From NCBI RefSeq assembly GCF_032854445.1, contig NC_088295.1, forward strand, positions 57,951,249-58,015,248: a DNA stretch of 64,000 nt, given 5' to 3'. Each line of letters opens with the position of its first letter. Positions within the stretch are counted from its first letter, which is position 1. Below, in pieces: positions 4,799 through 54,303 of the stretch. The DNA is from Liolophura sinensis. Taxonomy: Eukaryota > Mollusca > Polyplacophora > Chitonida > Chitonidae. The position numbers and the translations under genes were made by a program. Under the pieces are notes generated by a model, which was not told the DNA's origin, made no database searches, and saw only the letters and a list, made by a program, of their open reading frames with translations.

Positions 4799-4961
4799 AA
4801 ACACAAATTACAGCTTGTACAGTTCGCAGCTGGATTTGTCTCATGTGCTTTCTACGCGGTCCGCGCTCGGGGTATGTACAACGGGCGGCCGAAGGCTCAA
4901 GCCATTCGTACTGTCTACTCCCAGACAGAACGTAAAACCCACTGCATCAAGATAATTCATC
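4799..4961 (+). promoter_or_regulatory. H1 promoter, unit A
   Basis: H1 box AAACACAAATT at 4799-4809. The dyad CGCGGTCCGCG is at 4855-4865, 107 bases before the ATG, inside the conserved TCTACGCGGTCCGCGCTCG. No TATA box is visible. Confidence 0.8.
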
Positions 4962-27899: not shown

Positions 27900-27930
27900 A
27901 TCTCACAGAATACCTTCATTCCCTTCCAAC

Positions 27931-27973
27931 GGCCCTTTTCAGGGCCAACCAAAACATCGAAAGGGGATTTCTG
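27931..27973 (+). terminator. Histone 3' stem-loop and altered downstream element, H3 unit D
   Basis: Stem-loop at 27931-27946. The downstream element is changed to GAAAGGGGATTTC (27959), breaking the usual GAAAGA-TCTTTC symmetry. Confidence 0.9.
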
Positions 27974-28100
27974 TTTAAGCACTGTTTATGATGTATTTAC
28001 TATAACAATATACTTACACGCGCGCATTTATATATTCCGAAAATAGCTGTGGTGCCTATACGGGGGGTGGTATAAAAAGATATAGCAGTACTATCCATAC

Positions 28101-28117
28101 ATATATATATATATATA
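28101..28117. repeat. AT microsatellite
   Basis: (AT)8 plus A. Confidence 0.9.
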
Positions 28118-29104
28118 CAACTATTTTTGGTCAAGCACGATTTTTGTAGATGTGCTCGCAGCTTTGTATGCTGAAAATGGTGTTACATACGTATACACAT
28201 GTAAATATATTTTTTTAAATGGCCTCCATACTTAGAATCATTATCAGCGGGAATAGTTTTCCATTTGTGTTTGGATTGTAAAGCTAATGAGGAAGAAATA
28301 AGGTTTTTGTTACAAAAAAAATGCATGGGGTGGGGGAAATGTGGACTATGACCAACGAACTCCAACTTTGGGGGATGGCATCGTAACACATGAAACAAAA
28401 TGCACTTAACAAAAATCCACATCGAGAGGTCCGCATCGAAAGTTAAGAAGTCTGTGATGTAAAACACCAGTCAACAACAATAGAAAATAAATCTTAAATA
28501 AATCATATTTTTTTTAAAGATTTCTTCCAATTGGTAGTTGTCTCATGCCTGAGCGACTGTTCCAAGGCGAATGGATTGTTTTATTGGGTTAGTTAGGCGA
28601 GTGTGTTTTTGAAGTAGAGACTACGTGTTGAACCTAAAATATATACTCCTCCGCGTCAATGTGGTGTATTTGGCATGGAATTTATAGACACCCCTCCCCA
28701 CTTTCTCTACATACGGAGACTTGATGACAATGAGCGGGCAACGACGCCCGTGGAACAATTCACGCGGCAGAGCGTTCTTTGATGATCACTTCCACCAATG
28801 TATGTAAATCATATGTGGCAAAGGTCGTCAGTACCTTGCCAAAGGTTGTTGGTTTTACTTAGGCACTCATCAACTCACAATACTGACCGTCATCGTCTAA
28901 GACAAAGATAGACCAATATAACAACAGAATAATTTAATAATTTCAATGTTTTCAATGGAAAACTTGTGATTTGCGAGGCCTGTATGACGAACAGTTTAAA
29001 AAAAATAATCGTCAGAATATATTTGAGCATTGTTTGAGAGTAACTTCAGCAGTAAGTGCTTTTGCATTTTATTCTGGAGAATTTTGTTTCGCTTTTGTTT
29101 TACG

Positions 29105-29395
29105 GACTCAATGGTAGCTCAGTGGAGGAAAACCGGGGTAAACCACCAACATTTGGCAAGTTACTGACGAACTCTCCCACGAGTGACGTTCAGATATGCA
29201 CACCATATTGGTGAAAGTCAACGAACATGCAAAGACTAATGCAGACTGTCGTCGGAGAGCCGTCGACCACGTACTGACACTGGGGTTCTGTAATGGAGGG
29301 GTAGGGGGTGGGGCTATCTGGCCGTGGCCGGTTTTGAACCCACACCACGTGCGTCGTAGCGATTTAAAGACAAGCACCTTATGACTCATTTAATT
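29105..29395 (-). mobile_element. SINE, minus strand
   Basis: On the minus strand: a B-box-like GTGTGGGTTCAAAACC, then a body with GAGAGTTCGTCAGTAACTTG and CCAAATGTTGGTGGTTTACC. The same body occurs on the + strand at 34234 and in the minus-strand pieces at 45945, 51925 and 58205. Confidence 0.6.
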
Positions 29396-29810
29396 GATCA
29401 GTCAGTCAGACGGTGTAAATCTTGTCAACCAAGGTGCTAGTGCACATATGATTGTAGTTATCTGTGAAGAGAATAAAGAGTAAAGAAATGATGACAGCCC
29501 TCAGTCAGTACACCACCTATGTTTCACATTTATTGGGCGGCGTCATTTATTGGGCCATATAAGCTACACACTGATGACGCATACGACATGTACTGAGACT
29601 TGTCACAAACCCTATGCATGCATTAACCCAGATTTAAGAAAGAACATTGACTACACATGTTAGCGGAGCTTTGATGGTATGAGCTGAGTTCGACTATTGA
29701 GTCAGATCTGGTGGTATGTTATAGGCTGTGTATCGCTTTGGCAATTTTACATACCTGGATATACTTTATAATAATTTTTGTTCAGCACAAATAAATCATC
29801 ACCAGACAAC

Positions 29811-30227
29811 ATGGTCCGCACAAAACAGACTGCCCGTAAATGTACAGGAAAGGCTCCCTGAAAACAGCTGGCCACCAAGGCAGCCGGGAAGAACGCCCCA
29901 GCCACCGGTGGTGTCAAGAAACCTCACAAATACAGGCCTGGAATAGCGCTGGAACTTTTCCATAAATTTCGTCGTTATCTAAGAGGCACCGGGCTTGTCT
30001 TCTGCAAATTGCCCTTCCAGCGTCTGGTGCGTGAAATTGCTCAGGATTTCAAGACGGATCTGCGTTTCCAGAGCTCTGCCTTAATGGCTCTACAAGAGGC
30101 CAGCGAATCTTACCTGGTGGGTTTGTTTAAAGACGCTGGGTTGTTCGCTGGTCAAACCAAACGTGTCACCATCATGCCCAAGGATATCCAATTGATCAGG
30201 CGTATCCGAGGAGAGATAACTTTATAA
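29811..30227 (+). pseudogene. Histone H3 pseudogene, frame kept, nonsense at codon 17
   Basis: The frame runs with H3 to the end but carries TGA at 29859 (Arg17, CGA to TGA), loss of Gly13, a 2-codon insertion before the FRRY helix start, and many replacements. These include Ser10 to Cys, loss of Cys110 and His113 ([14 protein letters not shown]), and a changed C terminus (EITL). The block [18 protein letters not shown] and Ser98 are kept. The leader CATCACCAGACAACATGG recalls the normal H3 leader, but no CCAAT cluster and no stem-loop follow. It was probably a cluster copy that died long ago. A working H3 variant is unlikely given the stop. Confidence 0.88.
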
Positions 30228-32490
30228 CCAGGCACCAGGGATTATTTCGTCATCAGAGAATGTAATCTCTCATTGGGGCAGATGTTTTGTGAATATAACA
30301 CGTATATTCTATTAATTCAACATCAAGACTTTATTAGACTATTAAGATATCATGTTGAATATGACAGAATATTATCTGTTTATTTACATAATACATTCTA
30401 GCATCAATGAGATAACAGGCTCTCTGTTAAAATTTATTTTTTGGAGCGTAACAATACGCGCTTAATTGACTACGATCGTATTGCCGTTTGTCTTCCACCA
30501 GCATAATGTGCATATCTGCCTGCCACACGCGGGAAAGCCCGTGAGGTTTATGCAGGGCAGCTATAACACTTTATACCATTCTATAAATGATAAATATTTG
30601 AGTATGGCGTTAAACAACAATCAAATAAAAACATATTATTGGGGATTGTGGTTTTGTCTTTTCGATTGTTGTTGTTACAGAACAAACTGATGTTTTCACT
30701 ATACATGAATACATTTCACTTAAACTGGAGGTCAATCTCCATCATTGTTAAGTGAACTAAGCTCACCTAGCAGGTCGTCTATAGTCGTTAAACCGTTATC
30801 AATAGTTACTGACCAAGCAGATCCTTATATAGGCCATCGTGAATAGAAACCGTGGTGAAAGTAAACACCGTATGCGCCATACTGAAACGCGTATTTGTTT
30901 ACGAAGATTGACATATTCGTGTGACATCTAGGCGTATACATAAAAGATCTAGGTTCGCCGCACGGCTCAAAGGGGAATGTTTTGGGTTGTATCCAAGTGG
31001 ATTAGTGCAATGCCTCCTTTAATACGGTGCTTAGTAAAAATTAATGACTAATCGATTCTTTACCGCGATCCAGACAACATAAAGACATGTCTGACCCAAA
31101 AGCTTTTTTTTTTAATGAAAGCAACCATGGTCCGACAACATTACCGGCTGTGCCACATATCTGAGTGGTAAAGTTTTCTGCCTGGGTAACTTAGGACTGT
31201 TCTTTCGTATGGTGATCTTTATGTCCCCTGAACGTGCCAACGTGGGCAACTTCATGTCCTCAAGGGTGGGTTTAAGCTGTAAGAAGTTTATCGTACTCCA
31301 TAGATTTAAGACGAACGTAATGCACATATGTGTATATATCTACAGACAGAGAAAAGTTGAACGAGGACAGTTTTGTTGGTAATCGAATGGTTGCTAGTAA
31401 AAGCTGAATCTGTTGACCATTGCGAAATCGACAAACTGTAAATGAGATACATTCCGAGGATCAGATCCGGTCGGAATTCAACACGTGGATTGTCCACAGC
31501 GATGAAAATCCTGGGATTATAGTTTAACATCATTGGTGAGTTCGCTTCAGACACAAAAATACTTTGTCAAATCCCACTTGTGGTAAGGGTAGCACAGAAT
31601 GTGACATGTACATAAGACAGTTATCCTGAATTCAGAGTTATTCAAACCTATATATGTTTACTTGATTGTTGTTTTACGCCATATGCTCGAGGACTTTTAT
31701 GAGAGAAATGGTTAATAATTGCAGAAATAATTTGTCACCTAGGAGTAATTTCACATTCTCTATGGAATATTTAATTTGAGATGTCTGTCTTGAATAACTT
31801 AATCGTTTATAGCCGATACATTTCGTAATAGCTAAAAAGGCTCATGCAGAGTTCGAATCCAGCTCATATCAATCTTTATTCCACCTGTTACATATATTCT
31901 TATGTTTTCAAATTTCGTGAAATGATCTAAAAGTTAGTTTTCAAATGCGGCATTAGCCACAAATATGTCAATACTTGTAGGCCTACGTTATAAGTAGTTA
32001 GTTTTAGTCAGTGAAGTCTTTGGGAATAACAATCGATCCAACCAGCATGTTTCACAGTCATAAACAAATGTTGCATACAAAAGTAACGTAAAACAGAAAA
32101 TACCTGTGCTATTTTTGCATAAATTTCAGGAGAGATAATTAGTGCATGTATCATCTTAATTGCTTAGAATTTTGTATATCAACTAAGAGCAATTTACTCA
32201 AAAAACTAACTAAAAAGTTCCACTAATTATAATATAGCGTTAACTTCTTGGCTGAGAGGAATAGAAGATTCTGTCGTTCGAATCCAGACCTCGCTCGTTA
32301 GTTCGTGCGGCTTTAACTCAGTAGGTACCTGGCGAGGTGCTGGTATTTTCCTCGAGCTCTATCAATTTTCCTACCCACCCATAACCTGGCCACCCTCTTA
32401 TAAGTGAGATATCCTTCAGTACGGCTTACAGACCCTATATCATTCAGATAAAATAATAAACAAGACGAATAAATACTCACTTATATTAAA
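30228..32490. other. Non-histone intergenic DNA with SINE pieces
   Basis: No supported gene. A SINE tail (TTTGAGTATGGCGTTAAACA, ending near 30632), a B-box-like GAGTTCGAATCCAGCTC at 31848, and a SINE at 32245-32465. Open frames of 70-82 codons on the minus strand around 31112-31554 show no family features. Confidence 0.5.
32245..32465 (+). mobile_element. SINE copy just upstream of the non-histone gene
   Basis: B-box-like TCGTTCGAATCCAG at 32274, body GTGCTGGTATTTTCC, tail TAAGTGAGATATCCTTCAGT. Confidence 0.55.
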
Positions 32491-32543
32491 TATAAAAGGC
32501 AGCTCGTTTTCGTCTGAATTCAGGTCTGATCCATGAATGACAC
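32491..32543 (+). promoter_or_regulatory. TATA box and short 5' UTR of the non-histone gene
   Basis: TATAAAAGG at 32491-32499 puts the start of transcription near 32520. Two earlier ATGs (32533 and 32537) open frames of 12 and 18 codons that stop inside exon 1, so they could act as upstream ORFs. Confidence 0.6.
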
Positions 32544-34022
32544 ATGGATACGCGGGATCCTTACCACGTGACTGGCCTGATGGGCGGAAATGAGGCAGAC
32601 GTCTGGGTGAATTCAAATCCGGAATCTGATACGGAACCGAGTCTTTATACAGAGGGTGTTATGACGGTACCTTATGGCTCTAGACATTCTCAGAATGGTA
32701 TAGACTACCACAGAAACAACTCTCCGGTCTTTTCAGCGTCTGGAAGGAGAATACCAAGTGCATTAAAACGCTGCGGTGGCTCCCCTCCTACACCACGAAA
32801 GAGGGTGTCTTTCACATTTCCAGACACGAGTTCTGGGTCAGTTGACAGTGATGAAGACCTCAACGAAGTTGAAATCATTCCTTTGCCGAAAACAGTAACA
32901 CCTGTCCCGATGCTCAGCATGAAAGACACCACCTCAAACCAGACGACCATATCCCGTGATCTGATATTCCAGAATGACGTCACGGCGGAAAAAGATCGAC
33001 TGCCGAGTATCGGAAAGTAAGTTTGGTTGGCCTTATGAAAGCAGAGAGATGCACGGTTAAATTGCTCTACGTCGGATGATGGGTGATCACTGCGAAACTA
33101 GGAGTACATTTAGTGGTATAAATGACAAGGCAGACAGAACATCCCTGTCTCCGTTTCACTGATAGTTTATGGAAAATACTAGATCTGTATTCGTGTTTGA
33201 ACGATGGACCAAGGGTCAATGTTTTCAATTTATTGAAAGTCAGTCTATTACTTTCTTAATTGCTATAGGGGTTAACATTGGCTCGGTAATCTGAAAACGT
33301 TCTATAGTTGCAGCCGTTGGGCCACTCGCAATTGTAGTCACAGGTTCGAATCCAGCTCTTGCTGATTCGGCTTCGGCTTTACATCAGGAGGTTTGCCATG
33401 GACCTCGACTTCGTGCACTTCAGTTTCCTTCAGCCATAAACCTGACTATCGCATGAGAAGTTATGAAGTCTGTGATGCGGCGTTAAGCACAAATGAAGTA
33501 AATGAGTAAATAAATGATGTATTTAACCCTATTCCTATAATCTTTTTTTTAAGGGAAAACTACGAAGACAATTCTAACCTCACAGAGACAAGTTCTCCGG
33601 CAACGTTTAAAAGTTTGAGGTCAAAGCTAAGGGGACTGCCGCCTATGAGGGTTCGGAAGTCTCCGCCAGCTTCGGATCCTTTTAAGATTTGTCTACACTG
33701 CAAAGGTTCGCTAGTTTCACACGCGGAGCTGAAGAAGATCGTCGACTCATCCATACATTATTTCAAGGATGCTCAGGTCACGTGCCTTCAGTACGACCCC
33801 CTTGCCATCTGGTGTGGCGACCCCGGAGCTGTCAACAGGTGGATTATCTCCCTTTCAGACACAGACGCCTGCCATTATCTCACTGGCACGGGAGTGAACA
33901 TTCACGGCCAGCATTTTGACGTGATCAGCTATGACGATATTCTCAAAGAAGAGTACCGTGTGTACAAGATGAAACAGGAAATTCTACAAGAATCCAAAAG
34001 AAAAGCACCTAAAACTGTATGA
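32544..34022 (+). CDS. Two-exon gene, 313-aa protein of unknown function with an RVSF motif
   Basis: Exon 1 is 32544-33016 and exon 2 is 33554-34022. Donor GTAAGT at 33017 and acceptor TTTTTTTTAAG at 33553 join in phase 2, rebuilding a Lys codon and giving one 942-base frame. Residues 1-200 are polar and Ser/Thr/Pro-rich, probably disordered, with SPPTPRK followed by RVSF (87-90), which fits the RVxF docking motif for protein phosphatase 1, then an acidic SDEDLNEVE run. Residues 200-300 look folded: a CLHC pair (204-207), a Tyr/Trp-rich middle (LQYDPLAIWCGDPG) and a C-terminal ISYDDILKEEY helix. No signal peptide or membrane segment is seen. I do not recognise the family. The gene is spliced and polyadenylated, unlike its histone neighbours, and lies on the same strand between units D and E. 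Confidence 0.8.
33017..33553 (+). other. Intron of the non-histone gene
   Basis: 537 bases, GTAAGT to TTTTAAG, with a SINE in its second half. Confidence 0.8.
33300..33518 (+). mobile_element. tRNA-derived SINE inside the intron
   Basis: B-box-like CAGGTTCGAATCCAGCTC at 33341; tail GATGCGGCGTTAAGCACAAA, then a run of AAATGAGTAAATAAATG. Confidence 0.6.
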
Positions 34023-34077
34023 CTACTGACAATGACATTCCAGGCATCTTTAGGCCGACACACAAATAATGTTTCCA

Positions 34078-34222
34078 ATTAAAAAGAAATATTTCGTCCT
34101 AACATTTTCTTTATTAGACACAATTCACATTATAAGTTTTTTTTTGCTATATTTTGATTTTACAATTTAATTTAAATTAATTTAAAATTGTTTTATCGTA
34201 ATGAAATATTCAACCAAATAAA
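34078..34222 (+). terminator. Polyadenylation signals of the non-histone gene
   Basis: ATTAAA at 34078-34083 and AATAAA at 34217-34222, 56 and 195 bases after the stop. No histone stem-loop is present. Confidence 0.55.
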
Positions 34223-34233
34223 AAACGGCAGCG

Positions 34234-34530
34234 GGCCATGATCAAATGTTTAAGGTTTCAAATCCAGCCTTGGGTAGAGCTTGGAGATTAACCTGTTCTC
34301 ATTGCTTGTGGCGCCCTGGCTACGATATGAAGTCCACGACGCTCATTTAGCCATTTGCACAGCCCAAAGATGTCAGCTTGTGCGCATCTCCGTGTATACG
34401 GTATATATGGGAAAGTTCATCAGTAACTTGCCAAAGTGCGGTATTTTTCTCCGGTTTCCTTCGCCCATAAAACTGACCGGTGTTTTAAAAGTGTAATATT
34501 ATTGAATATGGCGCATCAAACAAATATAAT
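34234..34530 (+). mobile_element. SINE, diverged
   Basis: B-box-like AAGGTTTCAAATCCAGCC at 34252. Body GGGAAAGTTCATCAGTAACT and TGCCAAAGTGCGGTATTTTT; tail GAATATGGCGCATCAAACAA. Overlaps the AATAAA signal region by chance or design. Confidence 0.55.
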
Positions 34531-34533
34531 CTT

Positions 34534-34616
34534 ACCGATGGTCGTCGGTTTTTTCCCACCATAACGTATAAGTGAAATATTCTTGAGTACGGTGTAAAAC
34601 ACCAATCAAATAAAAA
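34534..34616 (+). repeat. SINE tail fragment
   Basis: ACCGATGGTCGTCGGTTTTT, then TAAGTGAAATATTCTTGAGT and ACGGTGTAAAACACCAATCA, a 3' tail pattern I associate with molluscan SINEs. Confidence 0.65.
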
Positions 34617-36441
34617 TTACAAACTTGAAAAAAAAAAATACACAAATCAAATATGATGTGCATAGCAAAAAAAAATTTTAAGAAAAAAATTGATCCAAAT
34701 TTTAAAAATGTATCGGTGGAAGAAAATCATATTTTTTCTCTACATTGCCCATTGTTTATCTGTTTTCGTTGAAACATTTGGCGAATTCAGTGGCTATGTC
34801 TACACTGGAACAGTTGAAAGATAGCACGACAAATCCACACATAAGTGTTTATGGTATGGTACAGTCATAAAGTTTGAACTTATCGCATCAGTTGCGACTA
34901 GGAAAAACAACACCACACTTCACCATATATTTCATAGTTCACCTAACGCCTCGTATTTCTAAACAATCCCTGGTTGGTGAAATGAGGAGATTATCACTTC
35001 AGAGAAGAGATTGGAAGCTATACTGGCATTATTTACTTCAAAGCTTAATATGTACAAGGACTTTCTCATAAAAACACCTTAATAGGGAAAGATAGCATAT
35101 TAAATAAATTATCCGCTAGTCAACACAAAGTCGCAGCACAAAGAAGGCAAAGTGGGGAACGGACGCACCGCAAACGTTTCTGCATCGCATTCGCTCCTAC
35201 AACATTGCTTGCGTCTTTCTAACATCACTGAAAACTGTTGACTGCTGCTCTTTGTATAATTTTGTCCTAAATTCGTACTTCATTTACTTTTTTAGTTCTT
35301 TGCTGGTTTGTGTTTAACATTGTTTTGAGAATTGACTCGGAACGTCCATTTCCGTTGACGGCTGGTATCTGAATTCGACGCATAGCTCCGTGGTTTAGTG
35401 CGTCCGTTGTAACTCTTATATCCGGCTCTACTTGCAAACCACCATTTAACTGATCTTATATGGCGTCTCTAGAATAGAAACACTTGTCAACAGATCAATG
35501 GTCCGTCTTAGATATACTCTGATTATAGAGGATAAGTCTGTAAAATCTTTCTTAAACGCCTTTGTCCTTGTCTCTCTTCCGCTGAAGGACGCTAGATTTA
35601 ACCAGGCAATCCTATATAGCACTAATACATATTGAGTATCAGATCCTTCAGTACAATAACCCTTAATTAAACACCAATAAATCATCTAAACCTGTCTATC
35701 ACTAATTCAGTTGACTTCATTTGTCCCATTCAATGAATGCCTATAAATGCCGGGCAACAAAAAAGAGTATTTTGAAGACGTTATATCCTATTCTCCCTTC
35801 AATATACAAGTTCGTCAAGGGACTTGATTTTTCTTATTTTAGAACTAAATAAAACAGTCCAGAAAATTAAAGTGTTCCAACCAACCACGTGAAACGGAAT
35901 TCACATTAGCTATGAAGGAGGTTTTGTCCACAAACAAAATAGGAGTAATGGTGATTAGATAAAACATCCGTGCATTTCATAATACAGACCGAAAAGGCTT
36001 TGATTCCCTCTTCATATTTATTTTCAAATTGCAACTGGTTAGAATAATTCAGGTACCACATAATAATACCTGAAGCAAAGAATACACAAGCTGTAAAGAA
36101 CAATACATGTTTAATACCCTACCTTACACTAGATCTTTGAGGCAGTGTCAGTCAGTGAACAATGGATTCAAGACTATAGCATTGTTTCGATCATGGTGGA
36201 AAAGTAACTTGTAGCCACAATAAAAGGACAAAATAATGTAAAGCGAAGACCAAAGTATATTTTTCATTATTTCGTATCACCAATACGTCTATTCAATCCT
36301 ATTTTTTATGACATCAGTGATAAAATACTCCAATTTACCTGTCTTAATATTTAACACGAAGTATACCATATCAAACTTTGTTAACATTTTATAATTTAAG
36401 ATAATATTTCCACAATAAAATTAGCTTTTGCCACCAACAAG

Positions 36442-36611
36442 AAAAACAAATTTCCTTTACTTTTGCTCGTTGAGCCCTAGTTCCCGCCGTTGCTCTCTAC
36501 GCGGTCCGCGCTCGAGTTATGTACACCAGCTGCTCAGGACACACCGGCATAAACCAGATAAGTCTGAGATAGCCAACGTAACACTATTCCACATTTCATC
36601 GCCGATTCATC
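36442..36611 (+). promoter_or_regulatory. H1 promoter, unit E, with a mutated H1 box
   Basis: H1 box reads AAAAACAAATT (36442-36452; C to A). An E2F-like TTCCCGCC at 36481-36488 and the dyad at 36500-36510, 112 before the ATG. Confidence 0.78.
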
Positions 36612-37178
36612 ATGACTGACACAGCTCCAGCCACAGTCGTCCAGAAGGCCACCAAGCCCAAAAAACCAGTCGAACACCCAAAGTATAGCGAGATGGTGGT
36701 AGCCGCTCTCAAGGACCTGAAAGAGAGAGGGGGATCTTCCAAAATCAAGATCTTGAAATACATCGTCACCAACTACAAAGTGGGAGACGAGAAGACCGTC
36801 AACACACACCTGAAGCTTACCCTGAAAAATGGCGTCCAGTCCGGAATGTTAAAACAGTCTAAGGGTACCGGGGCCTCAGGATCTTTCAAGCTGGGAGAAG
36901 CAGCCAAGAAAGCCCCAGCCAAGCCAAAGAAACCCGTCGTTAAAAAGCCAGCTGCCAGAAAGCCAGCCACGAAGAAAACAAAATCACCGAAGAAAGTCGC
37001 AAAGAAACCAGCTGCCAAGAAACCCAAATCTCCGACCAAGAAAGTCACAAAGAAGACAAAATCTCCAAAGAAGGGTGTAAAGAAACCAGCATCGAAGAAG
37101 TCAGCGAAGTCCCCAAAGAAACCAGCAACTAAAAAGCCAGCAGCCAAAAAGCCAGCAGCAAAGAAAACAACTGTTTAA
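36612..37178 (+). CDS. H1: Linker histone H1, unit E (188 aa)
   Basis: The shortest H1 here. It lacks the three residues Val-Lys-Lys at 13-15, so the winged helix lies at about 22-95. Within it are Ser-Lys-Ile for Ser-Arg-Ser after GGS, Thr and Asn in LKLTLKNGV, and QSKGTGAS for QTKGTGAT. The first two residues of that loop pair and QSKGTGAS are shared with unit F. The tail has SPKK, SPTKK, SPKKG and SPKK and ends KKTTV. The gene is intact, although its H1 box has one base changed. Its sister is the broken H1 of unit F. Confidence 0.94.
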
Positions 37179-41926: not shown

Positions 41927-42518
41927 ATGACTGACACAGCCCCAGCCCCCGTCGTCCAGAAGGTGAAGAAGGCCACCAAGCCCAAAAAACCAGCCGAACA
42001 CCCAAAGTATAGCGAGATGGTGGTAGCCGCTCTCAAGGACCTGAAAGAGAGAGGGGGATCTTCCAAAATCAAGATCTTGAAATACATCGTCACCAACTAC
42101 AAAGTGGGAGACGAGAAGGCGGTCAACACACACCTCAAGCTTGCCCTGAAAAGTGGCGTCCAGTCTGGTCTGTTAAAACAGTCTAAGGGTACCGGGGCCT
42201 CAGGATCTTTCAAGCTGGGAGAAGCAGCCCAAGAAAGCCCCAGCCAAGCCAAAGAAACCCACCGTTAAAAAGCCAGCTGCCAGAAAGCCAGCCACGAAGA
42301 AGACAAAATCACCAAAGAAGATCACAAAGAAACCAGCTGCCAAGAAACCCAAATCTCCGGCCAAGAAAGTCACCAAGAAGACAAAATCTCCGAATAAGGT
42401 TGTTAAGAAACCAGCATCTAAGAAGCCAGCGAAGTCCCCAAAGAAACCAGCAACTAAAAAGCCAGCAGCCAAAAAACCAACAGCTAAAAAGCCAGCAGGC
42501 AAGAAAACAACTGCTTAA
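41927..42518 (+). pseudogene. Linker histone H1, unit F, broken by a 1-base insertion
   Basis: The reading frame matches H1 through the winged helix. An extra C in GCAGCCCAAG (42228-42230) then shifts the frame and stops translation at 42268, giving a 113-residue protein with the globular domain but almost no basic tail. After the insertion the original frame is clean to TAA at 42516. The kinship is to unit E (SKIK loop, QSKGTGAS). The stem-loop has a C-to-T change and the H3 in the same unit is also frameshifted, which favours real decay. A sequencing error cannot be excluded. Confidence 0.88.
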
Positions 42519-44591: not shown

Positions 44592-45001
<410 letters not shown>

Positions 45002-53713: not shown

Positions 53714-54303
53714 ATGACTGACACAACTCCAGCTCCCGTTGTCCAGAAGGTAAAGAAGGCCACCAAGCCTAAGAAGCCAGCCGAACACCCGAAATACAGC
53801 GAAATGGTGGGTAGCCGCTCTCAAGGATCTGAAAGAGAGAGGTGGATCATCTAGGAGCAAGATCTTGAAGTACATCGTCACCAACTACAAAGTGGGAGAC
53901 GAGAAGACCGTCAACACACACCTGAAGCTTGCCCTGAAAAGTGGCGTCAAGTCTGGTATGTTGAAACAGACTAAGGGCACCGGTGCCACGGGATCTTTCA
54001 AGCTGGGTGAAGTCGCCAAGAAGCCCCGGCTAAGCCAAAGAAACTGCCGTCAAGAAACCCAGCTGCCAAAAAGCCAGCTACTAAGAAGACAAAATCGCCA
54101 AAGAAAGTCACAAAGAAACCAGCGGCAAGAAAACAAAATCTCCGGACCAAGAAAGTCACGAAGAATACGAAATCTCCCAAGAAGGTTGCCAAAAAGCCGG
54201 CCTCTAAAAGCCAACAAAGTCTCCGAAGAAAGCAGCGACTAAAAAGCCTGCAGCCAAGAAACCAGCAGCGAAAAAGCCAGCAGCCAAGAAGACAAAGGCT
54301 TGA
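53714..54303 (+). pseudogene. Linker histone H1, unit H, with seven 1-base indels
   Basis: Aligned by eye with units G and I, it has an extra G at 53809-53811, a lost A near 54021, a lost C near 54044, an extra C at 54058-54060, a lost C near 54126, an extra G at 54144-54145 and a lost A near 54206. The net change is minus one. The first shift comes 33 codons in, so no working H1 is made. Base substitutions against unit I are few. Most indels lengthen or shorten a run of identical bases, a common long-read error, so an assembly fault is a serious alternative. The promoter and stem-loop are normal. Confidence 0.85.

Follow-up and report, generated by a model that had tools for sequence, protein, structure and literature searches.

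A probable single-copy two-exon gene for a DUF4732 protein, possibly a PP1 adaptor, in a mostly non-array insert of a Liolophura sinensis H1/H3 histone array

Within the 64-kb stretch of Liolophura sinensis DNA analysed here (referred to as the window), a tandem H1/H3 histone gene array holds an insert of mostly non-array DNA, and in this insert lies what is very probably a real, protein-coding gene of two exons. By its profile match, the 313-residue predicted product is a member of DUF4732 (PF15876), a family that has a Pfam model without an assigned function. Our best guess from the sequence is that the protein acts as an adaptor recruiting PP1. To the reading as a whole, namely that this is a genuine RNA polymerase II gene with two exons and a single copy, lying in a mostly non-array insert and encoding a DUF4732 protein that recruits PP1, we give a probability of about 0.4, and we consider it almost equally likely that the gene is real and its PP1-docking motif is unused.

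Gene structure and copy number

The preliminary description proposed a two-exon gene for a 313-residue protein, and this model was borne out, as the two coding parts on the forward strand join in frame with GT-AG splice sites and a phase-2 junction in the translation of the joined exons (Table 1). The splice sites are clean, as described: the donor is A/GTAAGT at 33017, and the acceptor, a T-tract and then AAG, ends at 33553. Alternative joins in the region were considered and rejected. Moving both ends by one base (33015/33553) preserves the frame and would use non-GT-AG sites; all the others disrupt the frame. A tRNA-SINE-like stretch, recognized by eye, is present inside the intron around 33300-33520. 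Transcription and splicing of this model are predicted from these sequence features.

Table 1. Predicted features of the DUF4732 gene and its surroundings (positions in the window)
Feature	Positions	Strand	Description and basis
Mostly non-array stretch containing the gene	27991..35489		about 7.5 kb, bounded by an H3 unit (its 3' end) and the H1 unit that comes next (its 5' flank); blastn
TATA-like box TATAAAAGG	32491..32499	+	about 30 bases before TTCAGG, a possible transcription start; sequence
Two short upstream frames overlapping the main start	32533..32593	+	ATG at 32533 (12 aa) and ATG at 32537 (18 aa); translation
Exon 1, coding part	32544..33016	+	residues 1-157 and two bases of codon 158; open frame, codon score
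Intron	33017..33553	+	537 bases, GTAAGT...TTTTTTTTAAG, phase 2; sequence
Exon 2, coding part with stop	33554..34022	+	residues 158-313; joined translation, codon score
DUF4732 domain (PF15876)	33633..33968	+	residues 184-295; hmmscan 43-45 bits, cut-off 27
3' region	34078..34222	+	poly(A)-type hexamers ATTAAA at 34078 and AATAAA at 34217; sequence

Upstream of the coding region, the box that had been called a textbook TATA box is indeed present at a promoter-like position; as evidence for a promoter it is weak and suggestive only, as the window contains 10 occurrences of TATAAAAG over its two strands. The two upstream ATGs of the leader were found as described, and so were the poly(A) signals, in the form of two poly(A)-type hexamers downstream of the stop.

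A whole-genome search located the gene and its DUF4732 domain in one place only in the 609-Mb genome, and in view of this single copy a duplicated or repeat-derived gene was dropped as a reading. In a DUF4732 search of 14 control genomes none had a match (0/14), and no relatives were found in a scan of viral contigs.

The DUF4732 domain

The preliminary description could not name the family of the protein. The HMM search does so, placing it in DUF4732 with 43 bits for the full protein and 44.9 bits for exon 2 (E 1.8e-11), above the curated gathering cut-off of 27. The C-terminal 112 residues match positions 41-154 of the 159-position profile, i.e., most of it, while the first 40 profile positions are unmatched and the N half of the protein, including its RVSF motif, falls outside the family model. 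An NCBIfam search of the protein returned nothing, and no relative with a solved structure was found by sequence.

The profile match was read residue by residue through in silico single-residue alanine replacement, with each variant rescored against PF15876. The largest costs were at W254 (-6.2 bits), C204 (-4.5 bits), Y292 (-4.2 bits), and C245 (-3.5 bits), all of which are residues favoured by the profile and present in the protein, followed by P187 (-2.9 bits), G271 (-2.8 bits), and H214 (-2.6 bits); replacement of C207, C235, or C264 cost nothing. In view of the zero cost at C207, the CLHC at 204-207 does not appear to be a conserved CxxC pair of the family. The CxxC that had been pointed out in this region is thus a weak candidate for a zinc motif and probably not a defining one, with C204 and C245 favoured by the profile whereas C207 is not. 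A zinc ribbon was also rejected as an assignment: the protein shares the CLHC with Zn_ribbon_TFIIB (PF13453) but scores only 12-14 bits against that model, below its cut-off of 22. The C-terminal domain is presumed to be folded from its Pfam match and not from a model; AlphaFold2, run twice from a single sequence of the exon 2 region, returned low-confidence models (mean pLDDT 44 and 45).

A possible PP1-recruiting adaptor

Several short motifs are encoded in exon 1, namely SALK (residues 72-75), TPRK (83-86), KRVSF (86-90), and an acidic run SDEDLNEVE (102-110), and a KEN tripeptide (158-160) straddles the exon junction. The RVxF motif is the commonest PP1 dock (PMC8786283), and KRVSF conforms to its consensus, in agreement with the suggestion that the RVSF fits PP1 docking. 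In shuffled sequences KRVSF is rarer than expected by chance: [KR]{2}V[ST]F was found in 0.1% of shuffles, a strict RVxF in 2.5%, and a looser RVxF form in 18%. KRVSF together with an upstream SALK-like motif occurred in 0.015% of shuffles, a combined pattern that was picked after the sequence had been seen; all of these motif statistics come from one sequence on which several patterns were tried. KEN was found in 4.6% of shuffles, and TPRK fits a CDK site. The N half had also been described as rich in SP/TP; the number of these sites is unexceptional for the composition (6 seen and 4.4 expected, P 0.26). We treat these motif matches as leads.

A system that may work in a comparable way is that of KNL1, which binds PP1 via a SILK plus an RVSF motif, with Aurora B phosphorylation of both motifs blocking the binding (PMC6715587). 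The DUF4732 protein likewise has RVSF downstream of a SILK-like motif, within an N-terminal region that looks disordered, and likewise a basic kinase site at the RVSF serine (PMC6715587). It differs from KNL1 in having SALK instead of SILK, a short spacing of about ten residues, and no KNL1 domains. The likeness is offered as one of possible working, and membership is not claimed. The residues at 72-75 do not form a canonical SILK, which is accessory and not required in RVxF-type PP1 regulatory subunits.

Based on these leads, we infer that the disordered N half would dock PP1 via KRVSF, aided by the SALK about ten residues upstream, and that PP1 would be released or tuned when the basic RKRVS site and SP/TP sites near it are phosphorylated. 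The partner or site where PP1 is delivered would be bound by the C-terminal DUF4732 domain, and with its KEN tripeptide the protein may be a substrate of the APC/C.

Of nearly the same standing is the reading in which the DUF4732 gene is real as modelled and its product is not a PP1 regulator, the RVSF being a chance match or a mere basophilic kinase site and the domain having another role. The loose RVxF frequency in shuffles is in keeping with this, as is the definition of the family by its C-terminal domain, with a profile match that excludes the RVSF region; further, our literature search found no paper naming DUF4732 or PF15876. It accounts less well for the rarity of the strong form KRVSF, the SILK-like neighbour, and the basic, disordered-looking character of the KRVSF segment (with disorder judged by composition only). 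A bolder extension of the PP1-adaptor reading would make DUF4732 as a whole an undescribed family of cell-cycle PP1 adaptors, combining the SILK-like and RVSF motifs, the CDK-type TPRK, a KEN degron, and a targeting domain, here embedded in an H1/H3 array; we regard this as unlikely.

Coding evidence for the two exons

Codon usage was scored with a model whose training set comprised some 2,700 codons drawn from eight long ORFs, five from the flanks of the array and three from another contig; the set is small and its ORFs are unannotated. With this model, exon 1 scored +27.9 bits in the claimed frame vs. -8.4 to +9.9 bits in the other five frames, and exon 2 scored +15.3 bits vs. -2.6 to +4.7 bits in the other five; the intron scored between -17 and -19 bits in each of the three forward frames. 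The frame-specific scores support both exons being coding.

We regard as unlikely a model in which only the DUF4732 exon, exon 2, is real and exon 1 is wrong, such that a different exon or start supplies the true N terminus and both RVSF and KEN lie outside the protein. It would fit the lack of homology support for exon 1 (no Pfam match for residues 1-200) and its insignificant length, at 158 aa vs. a mean of 141 aa and a maximum of 208 aa for the longest ATG ORF in random 64-kb Markov-2 sequences with the same trinucleotide make-up. The frame of exon 2 also remains open about 15 codons beyond its coding part (170 aa). Against it are the high codon score of exon 1 in the claimed frame and the strong donor placed where that frame ends, with an in-phase join.

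The histone array and its control elements

As described previously, the gene is located within the histone array. This is a tandem H1/H3 array that extends over about 95 kb (roughly 57.935-58.030 Mb of contig C1), and the gene shares its strand with the window's histone genes. The bounds of the insert come from a blastn comparison with 27900-36620 as the query and, as subject, the remainder of the window plus about 200 kb of other DNA. Exceptions to its non-array character are a degenerate H3 copy (29797-30222) and short dispersed repeats. The degenerate copy, at about 83% DNA identity, is interrupted by one in-frame stop, has altered residues, and is without a stem-loop or the usual H3 promoter. 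The dispersed repeats, at 28800-29221, 30576-30638, and 34537-34646, flank the gene and have copies at many of the sampled places in the genome; the last of them ends in a AAACACCAATCAAATAAA tail, which we take to be of the kind seen in molluscan SINEs. Elsewhere in the window, disrupted histone copies are present at 44592-44998, 53714-54023, and 41927-42268, namely one H3 and one H1 with matches split in two and another H1 with a short frame of 113 aa.

Only H1 and H3 genes make up the array. The window has no H4, H2A, or H2B gene; these three instead form another array, on contig C7 (23.2-23.8 Mb), with a period of about 9.8 kb, and a smaller set is present on contig C4 (19.58-19.59 Mb). This suggests that the replication-dependent histones are split between H1/H3 and H2A/H2B/H4 arrays. 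A literature search for H1-H3 arrays with mollusc or bivalve found no paper.

A 17-base H1 box, TCTACGCGGTCCGCGCT, is present upstream of 9/9 H1 genes, one copy having one mismatch, and the rest of the window lacks it. It is located about 95-115 bases before the H1 start codons (e.g., 4851-4867 and 36496-36512) and is nearly invariant while the surrounding sequence diverges; we regard it as a candidate H1-specific control element. Most H3 genes have CCAAT and GCGCGC elements, and the stem-loop GGCCCTTTTCAGGGCC follows the histone genes. At the DUF4732 gene, the H1 box is absent, neither CCAAT nor GCGCGC occurs in the 250 bases before its TATA-like box, and no histone stem-loop is present between 27946 and 37210. 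Because these histone control elements are absent and poly(A)-type hexamers are found instead, the S-phase expression that had been suggested from the location of the gene is unsupported, and histone-like regulation was dropped as a candidate. It is highly improbable that the gene has been captured by the regulation of the array and is expressed with the histones in S phase, for which its position and strand within the array would speak, and against which stand its control signals and the fact that most of the DNA surrounding it is not common to the array. The place of the gene in the array is probably incidental.

Implications

On this evidence, a single-copy gene unrelated to histones can reside in a histone array and retain control signals of its own. 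For the family, if the RVSF dock proves to be conserved in DUF4732, PP1 recruitment would be a direct, testable first function.
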